The notes under the pieces were generated by a model. It saw nothing but the letters and a program-made list of their open reading frames with translations, was not told the DNA's origin and did not search any database. The translations under genes were made by a program, and so were the position numbers. From positions 12,975,727 through 13,039,726 of the forward strand of contig OY811973.1 of NCBI GenBank assembly GCA_963681505.1: a stretch of DNA of 64,000 bases, read 5' to 3'. The DNA is from Eunapius fragilis. Its lineage: Eukaryota; Porifera; Demospongiae; Spongillida; Spongillidae. Of the stretch, positions 37,227 to 64,000 are shown in pieces. Every line of letters begins with the position of its first letter. Position 1 is the first letter of the stretch.

Positions 37227-37696
37227 CTGTATAAATACATTGGTTGAATACATGAGTTTTATCCAATTATAGCTTTCATGAGCAATAGAAAATATCATGC
37301 TAAGTTAGCCTAAGGACCTCAGTACAATCTGACGTGGTGTATTGATTCAGAAGTTTAGGATTAACTGTGCACCAACATGCTAACACCCGAGGTCAGCATC
37401 CTAATGCTTCAATGACATGGATATGCAGTTGTTTATAGGGATACGTATGCAATAAACCCCACTCCCAAGCATGTTTACATTGGCATATATATATATATAT
37501 CTTTAGTGGGACTCCAACCACCAATAGATTCACTTTGAGTCCATTCTTTACATAGAATCTAATTAGAGAGAGTACATGGACTATACCTGTTGATTTACAA
37601 AAGTAAATGTAGAAAAGAAAATAACCATGTGGATAGCATTTATCTTGTAGCTATGGAAATGCGTTTAATGCAGGTGTCGCCTCACATCTAACTTAC

Positions 37697-38077
37697 ATGC
37701 CAGTTGTATGTTCAGTGCATGGTTGCCAACAGGAGCTAAAACATAGCCATCTCTGCACAAGACTGTGGTCCCATTGAAATATTGAGGTGTGGGTATGGTG
37801 AGGACAGAGGTATAGCATGTTCCAGTGACATTGGTCATCACAGCAGAGAGGTTACCACAGGATACTACTGATGGATTGGGTGAAACGTTTGATCCTTGTG
37901 TGAGTGTGATTGCATTAACAGTAAGACCAGGAGGGGTACACTGGAAGCCAGATCCTGTCCACAATGTGCTTACTGTACCAGCATCTGAACTGAAGGCACA
38001 GGTGTAGGTGATGGTGTCCCCAGGACAAAGGAGTGTTCTCATTGGTGGGTAGTTAATGTTAAATGATGGACAGTCAG
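37697..38077 (-). CDS. receptor A, exon 2: Ig-like domain (LCPG type)
   Basis: A 127-codon exon from ttatacag to ggcat|gtaagt, phase 1-1. It encodes DCPSF, MRTLLCPGDTITYTCAF (B-strand Cys), STLWTGSGFQC (core Trp), SVVSCGNLSAVMTNVTGTCY, and an LCRD F-strand Cys after TPQYFNGTTV. It has eight cysteines and several sequons. This Ig subtype differs from the DYGVYTC type in the 1-18 kb array, and is shared with receptor B (nearly identical) and receptor C (diverged). It is the membrane-distal, probably ligand-binding domain. Confidence 0.83.
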
Positions 38078-38739
38078 CTGTATAAAAGTGTCCAGGTGTA
38101 CAATACATTTTATGAATCATCTACAGTGCGATATAAATTCAATATACACATACAATAGTGCAATTCAAAACCTATACTACAAACTCTTCGCGTGACATAC
38201 TGTTGGTCTGCTGCTGTCATTGAAATGATGTAGAGAATCAGTCCTTAACCCTTGTGGCACTTTAATCTTCCAGGAAATGCAACGCTCGCATTTTGAAATG
38301 TATTGTTCATTTTCAGTGTACGCGTTGTATATACAATATGATGTCCAATTCTTTATGAACTTCGCAGTATGTGCACTGAAAAATGTGCTCTAGTCTAATC
38401 ACGAGCCATTTTCCCGCGATCAACGGTAGCGCTGAAGTCGGTTTAAAACGCGAACGTTTGATCGGAGTTGGGTGCAAAATTATGCAATTAGGCTCCGTCG
38501 CGGTGCATAGTTAAACAATGTCTCGTTCAATATGACAGGTTTAACCTGTCATGATCAGATCGACGGATCAATCTATCGAATTTCGTCGATTTATTTTTTT
38601 ATATTGGATCAATGCAATTAAATTCTGTCCTAGAATCTAATTAGAGTAGTTATATGAAAACTGCACTGTACTATATAGGTAACTTGTTTCTACTTTTTAA
38701 TGTAATTCAACAGATCCCATGCAACATTTAGGTACTTAC

Positions 38740-46087: not shown

Positions 46088-46930
46088 AAGCTATTGGTGG
46101 AATTTCCATTCTTGTGTTCCTATGCGTGGTCATTCCGAGACTGGGTACGAGGACGGGCAGTTCTCTACACAGCCAAATTTATACAATCTGTACCAGATAT
46201 TATCTTGCCACCATACTCTGATCAGACACAATGATCAGTCTGAACCAGGTATGATTGCAAGTAATATTGTGGTCCAGAATGATACGACGACCGCAAACAG
46301 AATAATGGCACATCCTGGTACATAAAAGCAACAATATGTCCCAGACTGGCGATCATATCAGTACCAGACTGATTACATCATATACCAGAGGCAGAGTGTA
46401 CGTACAAATAGGTATTATTTCAAACATTACACGTGTCAGTTATAATTCCAATTCGTGCTCGCCTGTATACATGTACCGGCCATGTCTAAGCGTAAGTTAA
46501 GTCTTAGTGTACGTGTGTGCTTGCTGGGTAAATCGACGTTCAGGGTGTACTTTACTTTACACGCCTCCATAATTTCCGATTCACTTTTTAATACATCCAG
46601 GAGTCTTTTAACACATATACACTCTGAATAGACAAAGCTGCGGCTTGCAGCTAGGTATGTAAATAAATATTGTCGTTGTAAGGGAGCTATGTAATCTCAA
46701 AAACATGTGACCCAGCAAGCTTGATTCACCCACTACCGTGATTCATTAGCGTGCATACACGCGCACGTAAGCACACATATTACAAACACACACACACACA
46801 CACATACACACATACACATACACACAAACAAACGTGCACACAGCACAGCCAATATTCCCTCCTTCCTTCGCTGTGACTGCAATCGTGTGCTTTTCTTTCC
46901 CGTGATGTCCCATGCGTAACAGTTGATGTG
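46088..46930. other. no gene recognised
   Basis: A CA-type microsatellite lies at 46783-46825, shortly before the terminal inverted repeat of the next element. Confidence 0.5.
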
Positions 46931-46944
46931 CCCAGCAAAAAGTT

Positions 46945-47165
46945 CTTGCGCAAGACTTGCCCAAGATCTTGGACAAGATCTTGGGCAAGACTTGCCTAAG
47001 ACTTGCCCAAGATCTTGTCCAAGACTTGCCTAAGACTTGCCCAAGATGCCAAGATTATGGCTGCCAAAATCTTGCGGACCCAGCAAAGGATCTTGTGTAA
47101 GACTTGCCCAAGATCTTGTGCAAGAGCTGGAGCAAGACTTGCCCAAGATTTTGTCCAAGAGTATT
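46945..47165. repeat. subterminal repeats with caagatcttg palindromes
   Basis: Repeats of aagacttgcccaagatcttg in variable spacing, many centred on self-complementary agatct. A second partial terminus-like copy (cccagcaaaggatcttgtgt) lies at about 47081. Confidence 0.85.
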
Positions 47166-47294
47166 AATGCCCATTCCCATTGACTCAACACAAATACCTT
47201 TTTCAAATCATCATGATATTGTAGCTTTCAATGCACATTGCAATGTTGTGTGTTCACACATCATGCACTTTCCTCAGCGAAAGCCTACTCACAT

Positions 47295-47416
47295 TCACAA
47301 CTTTTCTTTTTTCAGTTCCTCTTTCCGCTTGTCCCTACACTTTTGATTGAGGGATTTCCAGATCTCCAAATCATGTGCTGTCACTGATCCATTCCCAAAC
47401 TTTTTGTCAATACATT
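47295..47416 (-). CDS. BEN-like gene, exon 7 (C-terminus)
   Basis: Enters in phase 1 after atttatag. It encodes ECIDKKFGNGSVTAHDLEIW then KSLNQKCRDKRKEELKKEKL and stop. The W-x-x-x-x-x-x-KCRDxR ending matches the last helix of BEN domains (typically W...IN.KCRD.RR), which bind DNA or mediate chromatin contacts. The phase fits exon 6 exactly. Confidence 0.6.
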
Positions 47417-47484
47417 CTATAAATGGATAAGTATAACCATTTCATAATGCTGAGTTCAAATATTGTACCTTCAATTTGCTTCAC

Positions 47485-47653
47485 CCTTGTAGACGACAAA
47501 GGAGGTTTTGTGGACAAACTGCATGTTGCTTGTGGTGGAGTTTTCGTAACAGCATTCTGCTTGTTCATCTTCACTGAAGATACAATCCAGCAACGCAAGA
47601 CCATACTTAACAGGATCTGGTACATTTAGCATTAGCAGATTGACCCCATCCTT
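47485..47653 (-). CDS. BEN-like gene, exon 6
   Basis: A phase 0 entry after ttcacag, leaving in phase 1 at caagg|gtgaag. It encodes KDGVNLLMLNVPDPVKYGLA, LLDCIFSEDEQAECCYENST and TSNMQFVHKTSFVVYK. The LALLDxIFSxxE segment resembles the first helix of BEN domains, where L..LF+.EEL is usual. Together with exon 7 it forms one domain of about 95 residues. Confidence 0.58.
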
Positions 47654-47790
47654 CTGTGAAAGAAATATATATTTAAAAATGTGCTACCTAACCCTAACCC
47701 TACTCTCTTAGTAAAATTTATATTCAATGCAGTTAGTGTGCTTTATGCTATGGAAGTTTACAAATGCTATACCTTTTCATGTGAAATAAC

Positions 47791-47826
47791 CATATGCTTA
47801 GCTTTCTGTTTTCCTTTCGCATAGTC
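47791..47826 (-). CDS. BEN-like gene, micro-exon 5
   Basis: A 12-codon exon, DYAKGKQKAKHM, between taaccag and catatg|gttatt, phase 0-0. It resembles the start of exons 3 and 4 (HARQKQKTK, HAKQKQKTK), so it is a third, shortened copy of a duplicated exon. Confidence 0.45.
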
Positions 47827-47881
47827 CTGGTTAAAAAAATTGATATTTAATTAATGTTCTAACATTTTAAATTACACATAC

Positions 47882-47960
47882 CTGTGTTTCTTCATCACTG
47901 TAGCTCTGTGAAACGGATGAGGACTTAGTTTTCTGTTTCTGCTTTGCATGTTGAGTTGTA
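47882..47960 (-). CDS. BEN-like gene, exon 4
   Basis: Reads TTQHAKQKQKTKSSSVSQSY then SDEETQ between attacag and acacag|gtatgt, entering in phase 2 and leaving in phase 0. Lys/Ser-rich, followed by an acidic SDEE patch; probably disordered, with a nuclear-localisation-like basic stretch. Confidence 0.45.
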
Positions 47961-47996
47961 CTGTAATAATATTTACCTTTCCTGATTATAATATAC

Positions 47997-48074
47997 CTGC
48001 ATTTCTGTTTCTTCATCACTGGGGCTCTATGAAATGGGTGAGGACTTGGTTTTCTGTTTCTGCCTTGCATGGTC
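47997..48074 (-). CDS. BEN-like gene, exon 3 (duplicated exon, frame ambiguous)
   Basis: A DNA-level duplicate of exon 4. In the frame homologous to exon 4 it reads DHARQKQKTKSSPIS, then a TAG, then SPSDEETEMQ. In the next frame it is fully open (TMQGRNRKPSPHPFHRAPVM) and phase 2-2, so skipping it keeps the frame. One C-to-T change explains the stop. Either the exon is used in the shifted frame, or it is dead and skipped. Confidence 0.35.
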
Positions 48075-48136
48075 CTGGTAAAAATGATGTCAGTTCAATT
48101 ATACTGTAATAACATACCACTTTGTTATCACTACTG

Positions 48137-48186
48137 AACATTTCCCTCAGATGCAGAGTCTTTTGGAAATAGGGGGCTTGCATCCG
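48137..48186 (-). CDS. BEN-like gene, exon 2
   Basis: Phase 1 entry after catacag. It reads PDASPLFPKDSASEGNV and must leave before the TAG that follows, the best choice being ttca|gtagtg, phase 2. The donor is weak, so the end is uncertain. Confidence 0.35.
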
Positions 48187-48788
48187 CTGTATGAAAATGA
48201 ACAAGTACTTTCTTATTCTAACTGGATGGATACGGAGTACCCTTAAAACGCTTGAAATGACAGAAGTATAACTTGTTCCTTTATAGACCCTTTAAGTCAT
48301 CCTGGGTGACATATTCCCTTTATCCGTTGAGAGTGATGATGTCTTGCAAGTGTATTCTCTACTGTTCTCTAAACATACAACTGTACATGTAGACGCGCGT
48401 GATGACGTAGACATAAGGTCTATTGAAATATAATAGCGTGGGCGTTTTTTATTTCACGCGTACGAGAGTTGATGAAAGGCTAGCTAAACGCCGCCACTAT
48501 CCAACTCTGCCTCGCTCAGAGGCGTACCATGCACTGTAACAAGCGGTATGTTGTGATATATAATGAAGCCCTTTCGTGCGCGCTGTGATCATAAACAACT
48601 TTCCATCTACGTTGCTATAATTATATATATTGAAACGGCCAATAGCCAGCCTTGTCAAACGGCGAAATGCACATGTGTGTATGACATGTACGTACTACTA
48701 CCATATGCGCGCGTTATAACGTTAACACTTTTAAGTGCACATTATTAGGCTCTGTACACGTACGCGGTGCCATAAGATGAAAACTTAC

Positions 48789-48882
48789 GATCATCAGCTC
48801 GTTTGTCATCGACAGCAATTTCAATGTTCTCATGTAGGTATCTTGGTGGAGGTTTCACTGTACGCTTTACTTTTGGCGGCAT
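48789..48882 (-). CDS. BEN-like gene, exon 1
   Basis: ATG at 48882 opens MPPKVKRTVKPPPRYLHENI then EIAVDDKRADD, leaving in phase 1 at gatc|gtaagt. Basic Pro-rich start, then acidic. A good donor and the in-phase acceptor of exon 2 support it. About 80 bases upstream, divergent, another ATG starts a short open frame on the plus strand. Confidence 0.5.
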
Positions 48883-48960
48883 GATTACAAGCTAGCACGT
48901 GGAACGAAATTTTTACGCGTAAAAAATTGTTTTCGCAAAATTTGAGCTTGCCGGTTATAT

Positions 48961-49089
48961 TATGAGTGATCACACTGGTGGAAACCGAAAACGGTACAAA
49001 GAGTACCTAAGGAACCCCGCTCTTTCTGTACCAGAAAGGATGGCAGCACGATACAAGCAACGTGGCTCGCGTGAAATGAATTCGAATTA
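48961..49089 (+). CDS. short open frame, divergent to the BEN-like gene
   Basis: Encodes MSDHTGGNRKRYKEYLRNPA then LSVPERMAARYKQRGSREMN and stop, 42 residues. The RKRYKEYLRNP and ERMAARYKQ pattern resembles the Arg/Lys/Tyr repeats at the N-terminus of proteins in some mobile elements, and the PEKKR stretch inside the palindrome at 44.2 kb. Could be a remnant start of a lost long frame. Confidence 0.3.
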
Positions 49090-49493
49090 GTACTATTATA
49101 TGTGCATATTGGCTAGCGTTAATTACATGTTAATTGTATGCAGGTGGGGTTCATGTTCACTCATGATCGATATAATAGTTTATCTGCCAAATGACGTTTA
49201 TGAAAAGCACTAGACAACTTGATTTATTGACAAGTTGTACTTTGATATGTTATATGCTGTTTTGACATTATGAATGTAATTTGCATCAGTGTAATCTATA
49301 CATGAAGAAACTTGACTAAAATGGGCAGCAAATTAATGAGTACCCTCTAGCCCTATGCTCTCATGCAGAAATCAAAGTATCTTGTAATTACACATTTCTT
49401 GCCCAAGAAGGCAAGATCTTGAGTAATCTTGGGCAAGACTTGCCCAAGAAGGCAAGATCTTGGGCAAGTCTTGCGCAAGAACTTTTTGCTGGG

Positions 49494-51516
49494 GTGGCCG
49501 GGGGCTCAGGGAGAAGGAGTTATTTCTACTGAAGTGAAAAGGGTAAGGGGTTGTTCACACTATCTGATGGTTACTGGTGTATTTTATTTCATTTCAGAAT
49601 TACGTTGTGCCTTGTGGAGAGAGCTTCAAGTTACAGCGTTTTTATAAGCGCCATCTTGAGAGCCTTTCTTACAGGGTTTTTGATTTTGTTGAAGAGGCGC
49701 GTTTGTGGGAACAGTACCACAGTGCAGAGGTTGGCTAGTGCATTATAAATGTGGTGCATAAATGTACAAACGTACAGGCAGACAATCAGACAATCCGTGC
49801 ATTAATGAGTGGTGTGGTGAATGTGAACCTATAATGTCAGATTGTAAGTTGCTATTCAAGCATAATAATTTTAATTTTTTATTTTTTCCCTTATATTCAA
49901 AGGGAGAGAAGATCCTATCGTTTTTTTGGTTCATTCTCAAGCAGATGGGAATTTCAGTGGACCCCTAGTCTTGCCAGTGTCAAACAAGTTACCTAATATT
50001 GTAACACCTGTTAAAGTAGGTTGCATTGTACACACTTTGCAATTAATGTCTGTCTAAAAATACTTCAGCATTTAGCTCCGATGGATTGCCTTTCTATTCC
50101 ATTCCATTGAAATCAATAATTACACAGTGCCTCGGCTGAACTGACATTATCTCATTTGAAGGGCAAAACACATACACGTAAGTATGCACATGCATGGTCA
50201 CTAAACATATCATAATGTTATATTTCAGAGAGATTTACCATGGAAGTGTCTGGAACACTGACTCTCGCTTTCTTGCACCCAGGGTTAAAGTCTCTGATGG
50301 CAAGTCAATTGCATAGAGGGATTGTGTTTATCTTGCTGAGTTGGGAACAGTTGTAGGGGTGGTGGTGAAGTATTTCCATGCAAGAACTCCTTGTGCTGGA
50401 AGAGCTATTTACCAACCTGGAACACCAAGAAAGGTATGCACACAATGACACATGTACATATATAACATGTACTCATTTGCCTAGGCATCAAAGTGCTCAT
50501 GCAATCTGTCAGAGTTGCCGCTTGTTTCTACTGGAAGACATGCAACTACCCTCAACAAGTTGTTGCAGTGCAGACCAAGTGATAGAGCACCATGCTATCA
50601 TGTCACAGCACAAGTGTTTGGTAAATTCAGAGGACTACATAGGGCAACACCATAGTGCAATGTTAAGATCTATGCATAGTGTTGGGGCGGTTTCTATTAC
50701 CTTTAGATGCTGTATGGAATCTTGCTTTAAGTTGCAAGATGGAGGTGTGGTGTGTGCGTTCAGAAACTGCGGTCACAGGATGGTGCAAAGCCCTTTGTGA
50801 ATGAGTATGACTGTCCCCTGCTGGAGCTGACCAGAACCATTTTCTCCACATCTGGGAGAAACGTACTCCGAGCAGTCTCAGTTGTCCCATGAATGTGGTG
50901 TTAGCTGTCGCTCTGAGGAAGCACTGACAATTGAATGGCAAGAAATTACTCGGACAAAACTTACTTTTGAACATGACTTGAGCAACACTATGTATTCCTA
51001 CAATGTTTATTGTGTACTATGATACGTCAAGAGTGGTAAAAATAACCTCTTCCGTACAAGGAAAACCGCCATATGAATTAAGTAACTGTAAACACTTCCA
51101 TACATGGAAGATAAATTTATGTTAGCGTATGTTATCATTCTGATCCAAAGCCGTTGTACAATCTGATTTATGCTGTTACGACAGTCTCGGACAGTCGACT
51201 TGTCTACATACCTTGTACCAGATTGTTCACAACCTTGTATACCATATATGTTATCATATATGGTGCGTGTATGGGTACAGTCTGGGTCAATAAATAGAAT
51301 TTGGCTGTGTAATACAACCGCGCGCGGTTTATGACGTGAAACAAACGATGAAATTACTCTTCTCGTTCGAATAAAACAACTAGCCAAACGATCCGATCGT
51401 CAGAAGTCTCGGTCGCGTGTTTTTAATGATTTCATAGTCTGGGTTTCTAGCGAAACTTCCGGTAGTAAAACCACAATTGTACTAGTGTTCTCAGCTAAAC
51501 AAAAGACCGTTGAAAA
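49494..51516. other. no gene recognised
   Basis: Scattered short open frames, none with domain or splice support. This stretch is immediately upstream of receptor B and should contain its promoter; no TATA-like element stands out near the ATG. Confidence 0.4.
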
Positions 51517-51574: not shown

Positions 51575-51718
51575 GTACGTATGCATGACTCAGCATGAGG
51601 TTACGCGGTGTACGTATATATAGCTTACTCTGTAATTACATTCAGAGATCATCACCATCATCATATATAAATCTGTACTTGCTTTTGTAGCCAAGGCCGT
51701 AGGCCCAGGTATCGATTG

Positions 51719-51748
<30 letters not shown>
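51719..51748. repeat. poly-G tract (about 29 G)
   Basis: Homopolymer in the first intron of receptor B, 95 bases before the assembly gap. Confidence 0.95.
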
Positions 51749-51749
<1 letters not shown>

Positions 51750-51841
51750 GATAGGTAATTGTCCGATAATCGGCGATATCGACAAAAATAAATATCGGTT
51801 TTGGTCACAGCCCTTTGTGGCTGGACAAAAGTCCATAATTA

Positions 51842-52041
51842 NNNNNNNNNNNNNNNNNNNNNNNNNNNNNNNNNNNNNNNNNNNNNNNNNNNNNNNNNNN
51901 NNNNNNNNNNNNNNNNNNNNNNNNNNNNNNNNNNNNNNNNNNNNNNNNNNNNNNNNNNNNNNNNNNNNNNNNNNNNNNNNNNNNNNNNNNNNNNNNNNNN
52001 NNNNNNNNNNNNNNNNNNNNNNNNNNNNNNNNNNNNNNNNN
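51842..52041. other. assembly gap (200 N)
   Basis: A run of exactly 200 N. The same 16 bases, caaaagtccataatta, end the left contig (51826-51841) and begin the right one (52042-52057), so the true gap may be zero or a tandem duplication. Confidence 0.98.
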
Positions 52042-52201
52042 CAAAAGTCCATAATTAGACAATACCGTAAACCACCATTGCGCCATGGCCTCATTAAAAT
52101 GGCGTTTTTTGAGAGAGCTGTATCTTGCTCATTTAACCATCAAATACCTGTTGATCCCTCCCATTTAACTGGTGTATCGTCGTAGTAGAGACTATACCAT
52201 A

Positions 52202-63399: not shown

Positions 63400-63523
63400 C
63401 TGAAAGTGAAAGGTAGACTATTTAGATGGCTTCAACATGGCATGTTTACCCTATAAACTAGATATTTTAGTATGACACCTCACTAGAACACTAACAACTT
63501 TAACACCATTGAAACCAACTTAC

Positions 63524-63898
63524 CAACTATGGTTATGTTTCCAGTACCAGACAAAGTCCCTGGTAGTCCAATGCTTAGGTCTCTACACTCTATCACCAGC
63601 CCATTCAAGCTTGGGTTAGCTGTAATGGTGAGTGTGGACGTGGGACAAGATGTCTGACCACTGACATAGTTGCTAGCAGCACTGAGGTAGGCACCACATG
63701 ATGATGATGGGCTAGGGGCACATGGAGCTAGCTGTGATAAGGTAATGGCATTTGAGCTGCCTGGACACTGGTTCTGTGTAGTGAAGAGCCATCGTGTGTA
63801 GGAGAGTGTACCAGTGACAGTACAGGTACATTTAGTAACAGTCCCAGGACAGAGAGGTTGGGAGATGTTGGAGTCACATGACAGGGTCTGGGCACTAC
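63524..63898 (-). CDS. receptor C, Ig-like domain exon (LCPG type)
   Basis: A 125-codon exon from taccatag to gttg|gtaagt, phase 1-1. It encodes SAQTLSCDS, SQPLCPGTVTKCTCTVTG, YTRWLFTTQNQC, SSSCGAYLSA and NGLVIECRD. Same Ig subtype as receptors A and B (LCPG, core Trp, IECRD) but strongly diverged, with extra cysteines. The signal peptide exon must lie beyond 64000. The exon is marked 5' partial at gene level only; the domain itself is complete. Confidence 0.83.
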
Positions 63899-64000
63899 CT
63901 ATGGTACAACAAGACAATAGTTTTGTACACTCCATAAAGGAGCACATTGACTATTCAAACATTTTGTTTCATCCTGTGTTACAGGATGTGCTTCCATGCA

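Follow-up and report, generated by a model that had tools for sequence, protein, structure and literature searches.

Proteins with a BEN domain form a class of DNA-binding proteins that has been found chiefly in viruses and among the chromatin factors of animals. A second group to which our locus can be compared is that of the maize En/Spm and plant CACTA transposons. As outlined in PMC2613891, Spm/En transposition needs a TNP2-type transposase (TNPD) together with TNPA, which binds subterminal repeats, and deletion derivatives of the element are movable when both proteins come in trans. In the same account, TNPA and TNPD are made from alternatively spliced transcripts, and plant CACTA elements need a second DNA-binding protein, the described examples of which share little mutual similarity (PMC2613891).

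Here we analysed a window of 64,000 nucleotides from Eunapius fragilis, located on contig C3 of the genome searched (218.9 Mb in 24 contigs), which holds an element of this general kind (Table 1). Together with its longer relatives it resembles maize En/Spm and plant CACTA elements, as far as these are portrayed in PMC2613891, in the TNP2-type transposase (found here in the relatives), in target duplications of 3 bp (for the window family), in subterminal arrays of short repeats in direct and inverted orientation, in having a second protein from a spliced gene, and in the occurrence of internal-deletion derivatives. It differs from plant CACTA elements in that its ends read CCCAG...CTGGG instead of CACTA, and in that a BEN domain is present in its second protein, the gene for which is divergent from the transposase gene. 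Like dSpm-type deletion derivatives, the window element has kept both ends and lost the interior of the transposase, with helpers presumably acting in trans; unlike them, it retains the partner gene, yet in a form that is broken in 17/17 copies read. The similarity to described BEN proteins (BANP, BEND3, BEND6, NACC1, Insensitive) consists of PF10523 scores above the cut-off in three families, PDB matches to BEND6 and BANP, and palindromic candidate sites, whereas here the protein is transposon-encoded and its gene adjoins a transposase. Overall, the kind of transposon is already known and the BEN partner appears to be new: the portion of the literature available to us on BEN domains with CACTA, EnSpm or transposable elements yielded no report of a BEN-carrying transposon, and a Repbase entry could exist.

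Ends, target duplications and copies of the element

An earlier sequence-only reading of the window had pointed to perfect 41-bp inverted ends and a gtg repeat on each flank, and had proposed looking for other copies with the same ends and for empty sites. All of these were recovered. Within the 64-kb window, the 18-bp end motif (up to three mismatches) occurs just at the element's two ends (shuffle mean 0.06), and in the genome it has a total of 389 matches at up to one mismatch versus 0 for the reversed control, so that the ends are not unique to this locus. Among the 100 end-motif places listed, several pairs face each other ~170–300 bp apart, which indicates that short elements sharing the ends of the window element also exist. 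A search with the whole element returned at least 104 match rows (best 40 of 241 candidates scored; the rows include the window itself and end-to-end repeat matches), with near-complete copies of 93–98% identity on several contigs. Since the genome searches scored the best candidates, all locus counts given here are lower bounds.

Identical 3-bp flanks were found in 13 of 18 two-ended loci and differing ones in five; as two of these 13 represent a single segmental duplicate, the ratio reduces to 12/17. With the flanks of the window element joined over a single GTG, at least 21 places match across the junction (best 40 of 327 candidates scored). All 11 paralogous empty sites fetched from these 21 are uninterrupted and carry the target triplet once; it reads ATG there, as against the GTG on each side of the window element. 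The GTG flanks are a target-site duplication, and the window element has transposed. Its insertion point lies in another dispersed repeat (~46781–46930 and 49497–49596), at least 21 copies of which span that point. The ends start with CCCAG in the window family and with CCCAGGC/CCCAGCC or CCCAAGG in the L044 and L045 families, and a terminal CACTA motif is absent from the window element and the families compared, for which reason we class the element by its transposase rather than with the CACTA elements proper. The short direct and inverted subterminal repeats that characterise the superfamily are present.

Table 1 Features of the element within the 64,000-nucleotide window.
Feature	Position in window	Strand	Basis
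Target-site duplication GTG, left copy	46928..46930		Flanks compared with paralogous empty sites
Terminal inverted repeat, left, 41 bp, begins CCCAGCAAAAAG	46931..46971	+	End motif repeated genome-wide
Left subterminal array, CAAG/CTTG repeats and palindromes (CAAGATCTTG among others)	46944..47160		Repeat count
BEN gene remnant, last exon (CIDKKFG...NQKCRDKR)	47295..47416	-	Inferred boundaries (GT-AG, homology); intron located as in four other families read
BEN gene remnant, first BEN exon	47469..47653	-	Frame lost ahead of the domain's second half; boundaries inferred
BEN gene remnant, exon 2 (CTVVCLENSREY...), approximate, with premature stop	48240..48390	-	Stop in 13/13 copies with exon 2 covered
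BEN gene exon 1 (MPPKVKRTVKPPPRYLHENIEIAVDDKRADD)	48789..48882	-	
79-bp interval separating divergent start codons; possible shared promoter (inferred)	48883..48961		84 bp in the 7,555-bp relative
Transposase exon 1 remnant (MSDHTGGNRKRYKEYLRNPALSVPERMAARYKQRGS)	48962..49090	+	Collinearity with the 7,555-bp element
Transposase C-terminal remnant (IDIIVYLPNDVYEKH and stop)	49166..49213	+	Compared with the 7,555-bp element, ~3.4 kb are lacking ahead of it
Right subterminal array	49391..49480		Repeat count
Terminal inverted repeat, right, 41 bp	49453..49493	-	Perfect inverted match to left end
Target-site duplication GTG, right copy	49494..49496		Flanks compared with paralogous empty sites

A broken BEN gene, transposase remnants and longer relatives

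Inside these ends the sequence-only reading had seen a seven-exon minus-strand gene with a BEN-like terminus and no transposase. A spliced minus-strand gene with BEN-like pieces is indeed there, but it is not intact: the LALLDCIFS half and the KCRDKR half of the domain lie in different frames, and in the copies among which the reading had suggested looking for the gene, the BEN exon reads through in 0 of the 17 read (window included; L015 and L016 among them are duplicates). An intact BEN gene in the window was rejected on this count. Exon 2 contains a stop in every one of the 13 copies where it is covered, the other four having no coverage of this exon. A whole transposase gene is absent, as had been stated, but its exon 1 and its last residues persist on the plus strand. 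Pfam gave no match for the window BEN pieces, and a composite read across the frame break scored 18.2 bits, below the PF10523 cut-off of 23.2. Rfam gave 0 matches in the window.

The origin of these remnants is illustrated by a related family that shares the first 18 bases of its ends with the window element. A 7,555-bp relative (adjoining stretches L041 and L029; target duplication CGA) has a TNP2 transposase (PF02992, 36 bits versus a cut-off of 28.6, E 5e-9) and, on the opposite strand, a spliced gene, the final two exons of which form a BEN domain covering PF10523 positions 1–76, the whole profile (31.0 bits versus a cut-off of 23.2, E 2.9e-7). Four collinear blocks, 67–80% identical between the window and the 7,555-bp element, cover the BEN gene and transposase exon 1, and the interval between the start codons is 79 bp in the former versus 84 bp in the latter. 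After transposase exon 1, the window sequence jumps ~3.4 kb to the transposase C-terminus, an internal deletion that leaves the window copy without a whole transposase. The genome searched yielded no full-length element that could be the direct parent of the window subfamily; L046, tried as a possible parent, matches the window element by its end alone. The window subfamily thus seems to have multiplied while carrying a broken BEN gene, in keeping with supply in trans. L033 is a further deletion derivative of the 7,555-bp type whose internal gap differs.

The transposase frame of the 7,555-bp copy is split by a stop, so this copy may be inactive, which counts against the reading favoured below. 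Open frames of 581–632 aa surround the transposase match in four of the six members of this family. In the stretches read, BEN exon matches are present in five of the six copies, stop-free in four of those and with stops in one; the sixth (L032) has none in its stretch, and stop-free BEN exons lie ~10 kb from its transposase.

Among the relatives, spliced BEN regions pass the PF10523 cut-off of 23.2 in three of four families (31.0, 32.4 and 24.1 bits), so that the profile check proposed by the earlier reading, which failed for the window pieces, succeeded for their relatives. The spliced BEN region of L046 had no match to PF10523, and the L044 frame left unspliced scored 21.3 bits, below the cut-off. 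Compared with the BEN region of the 7,555-bp element, those of L044, L046 and L045 are 55%, 50% and 37% identical, respectively. The intron within the BEN domain is alike in position and phase in all four families read, as placed by GT-AG borders and homology rather than by cDNA. For the transposase, L045 scored 54.9 bits against PF02992 (above the cut-off of 28.6) and the 597-aa protein of L044 scored 16.2 bits (below it). A PDB search with a profile of the four relatives placed BEND6 (E 0.001) and three BANP matches (0.0025–0.0032) first, and the fifth match at E up to 1 was an unrelated Cascade subunit (0.79); with a single sequence, the PDB search gave just two weak matches, to sugar-binding or regulator proteins. 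In viral contigs, the BEN profile gave 80 pattern matches, of which 0 were confirmed. It is strongly supported by these comparisons that the relatives encode BEN-domain proteins, with a putative BEN fold and putative DNA binding.

Subterminal palindromes and the putative role of the BEN protein

The agatct-centred subterminal repeats of the earlier reading proved to be part of a palindrome pattern. GATC-centred CAAG-NN-CTTG palindromes number four in the left 240 bp and two in the right 160 bp of the window element, with 0 in the intervening 2163 bp (shuffle means of 0.03, 0.01 and 0.04 for left, right and middle). In the 7,555-bp relative there are four on the left, three on the right and 0 between (shuffle means ≤0.14). 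The other two families examined have ends rich in motifs of their own, AAGATCTT in L044 (11 in the ends and 0 in the middle) and CATGCATG in L045 (13 in the ends and five in the middle), both being counts without a shuffle control. Comparison with a second copy of each (C19 and C13 copies; L058–L061) served to locate the ends of L044 and L045. These families fit 2-bp target duplications (TA, TC; AA, AC), unlike the 3 bp of the window family, as read from two copies per family with a chance of 1 in 16 for each match. Subterminal palindromes are family-specific and fill the element ends.

The two-gene layout and the palindromes at the ends fit the Spm/En scheme, and on this basis we place the BEN protein in the second role of that scheme. 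We consider it quite probable, as one joint reading, that positions 46931–49493 hold a non-autonomous copy, shortened by internal deletion, of a TNP2-transposase (EnSpm-like) DNA transposon, and that the longer relatives carry a TNP2 transposase gene and a divergent multi-exon BEN gene whose product would play the part of TNPA as a candidate palindrome binder. The sequences directly bear out the structure of the element and its target duplication, the relatives with both domains encoded by divergent genes whose start codons are near each other, the deletion, and the loss of the BEN frame in this subfamily. The BEN protein would bind the family-specific palindromes inside the ends, as TNPA/TNP1 do in plants, and the palindrome-bound protein would let the transposase act on the termini; perhaps it also regulates the element. 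The window copy would have been moved by proteins supplied in trans. Against this reading stand the loci of either gene that lack a partner within 8 kb, the L044 transposase score below the cut-off, the L046 BEN region without a Pfam match, the 2-bp duplications of two families and the discordant ranking of BEN and transposase identities between families.

What is described of BEN domains on DNA is compatible with such a role. The BEN domain of NAC1 is reported to select the palindrome ACATGT (PMC7764960), and that of NACC1 to bind CATG and to have been crystallised on a CATG site (PMC11472053). The CATG-rich ends of L045 match this type of site, which is suggestive. In the data presented in PMC11472053, the NACC1 BEN domain bound DNA at ~1:1 and the BANP BEN domain alone was a monomer, so palindromes need not imply dimers.

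An alternative is that the BEN protein is the element's own but acts on host chromatin or silencing, as a repressor, insulator or anti-silencing factor, and not on the ends. The sources available to us present most known BEN proteins as factors of chromatin and transcription, and the divergent start codons 79–84 bp apart could mark a self-regulated promoter. However, palindromes are found at the ends and not inside in both elements counted (window and 7,555-bp), and in the L044 and L045 families the ends are densely set with palindromes particular to each. Given this distribution we regard a host-directed role as unlikely and favour binding to the element ends.

The second proteins described for plant CACTA elements resemble one another little, as noted above; here, a known domain, BEN, can be recognised in the second protein of one clade, and DNA complexes of this domain have been solved (among those presented in PMC11472053). 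The matching of end repeats and end-binding proteins is directly testable on several diverged families in one genome, and the findings bring up the possibility that BEN domains were spread by way of transposons. A bolder extension, to which we give little credence at present, would be that the whole TNP2 clade uses BEN end-binding partners matched to family palindromes and that certain BEN chromatin factors of the cell may descend, through domestication, from such transposon proteins.

Association of BEN-like genes and transposases across the genome

We collected 147 BEN-like loci with two query proteins at loose thresholds (136 rows at E up to 0.1 and 85 rows at E up to 0.05) and 87 transposase loci of the clade from 134 rows, all of which were used in the pairing count. 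A clade transposase lies within 8 kb of 50 of the 147 BEN-like loci (97 are without one), and, counted by transposase loci, 49 of the 87 have a BEN-like exon in that range and 38 have none. The shift control for pairing gave a mean of 1.0 and a maximum of 5 in 1000 trials; it is approximate, with one offset applied to all BEN loci per trial and contigs wrapped at 14 or 5.5 Mb. Of the 50 paired BEN loci, 48 are divergent from the transposase, one is convergent and one is on the same strand. By comparison, PF02992 loci outside the clade (126, from the best 150 scored) have a BEN-like match within 8 kb at one locus, in convergent orientation. Among the BEN loci without a partner is the window subfamily, which has lost its transposase by deletion.

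The BEN gene is thus a recurrent companion of one transposase clade, not a one-off capture. The sequence-only reading had left two options, a transposon that captured a host chromatin gene or an element class with a BEN-like DNA-binding protein; the second is strongly supported as far as the gene of the relatives goes (by Pfam, the PDB profile and the pairing at 49/87 loci), the window's own gene being a broken copy. Relative to the 7,555-bp element, one family is 54% identical in BEN and 42% in the transposase versus 43% and 58% in another. With these rankings in disagreement, exchange of partners between families is possible.

Under the capture option, known as transduplication, a host BEN gene would have been taken up and would have no part in transposition. 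The window gene is broken in all copies read, as a useless passenger would be, and a host donor is conceivable, as the genome has BEN matches at other places, including three single-exon matches in open frames of 167–177 aa (C1:23923413, C11:7578973 and C1:13449352) that are absent from the BEN-like lists and are possibly host BEN genes. These points are outweighed by BEN-like exons beside the transposase in many diverged families in one layout, by the single intron position in the four families read, and by the 7,555-bp family, where most copies keep stop-free BEN exons in or near the element. We therefore reject a single capture of a host gene in view of the genome-wide divergent pairing, hold the capture option in general to be very improbable, and retain the BEN gene as a component of the transposon. 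A still weaker notion, that the element arose as an artefact of foldback or inversion and has never transposed, could draw on the many overlapping inverted repeats in the ends, but it is virtually eliminated by the numerous copies over many contigs, the target duplications and, above all for an artefactual inversion, the paralogous empty sites.

The PF10523 profile run over the genome gave just four matches, which we attribute to the domain being split by an intron in the families read. Around one of these matches (L042, L043), the nearby BEN-like exon of the transposase sits elsewhere. Outside the above counts, four more divergent pairs ~19–24 kb apart were noted by eye (C1:10824021/10843031, C1:17131596/17155902, C10:8716350/8740244 and C18:2575213/2595139), which are possibly much larger members of the clade. 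Elsewhere in the window there is a run of N (~51645–52182), either a gap or withheld sequence, and two minus-strand open frames (37668–38120 and 63486–63950), reminiscent of sponge genes, encode what we take to resemble immunoglobulin-like domains.
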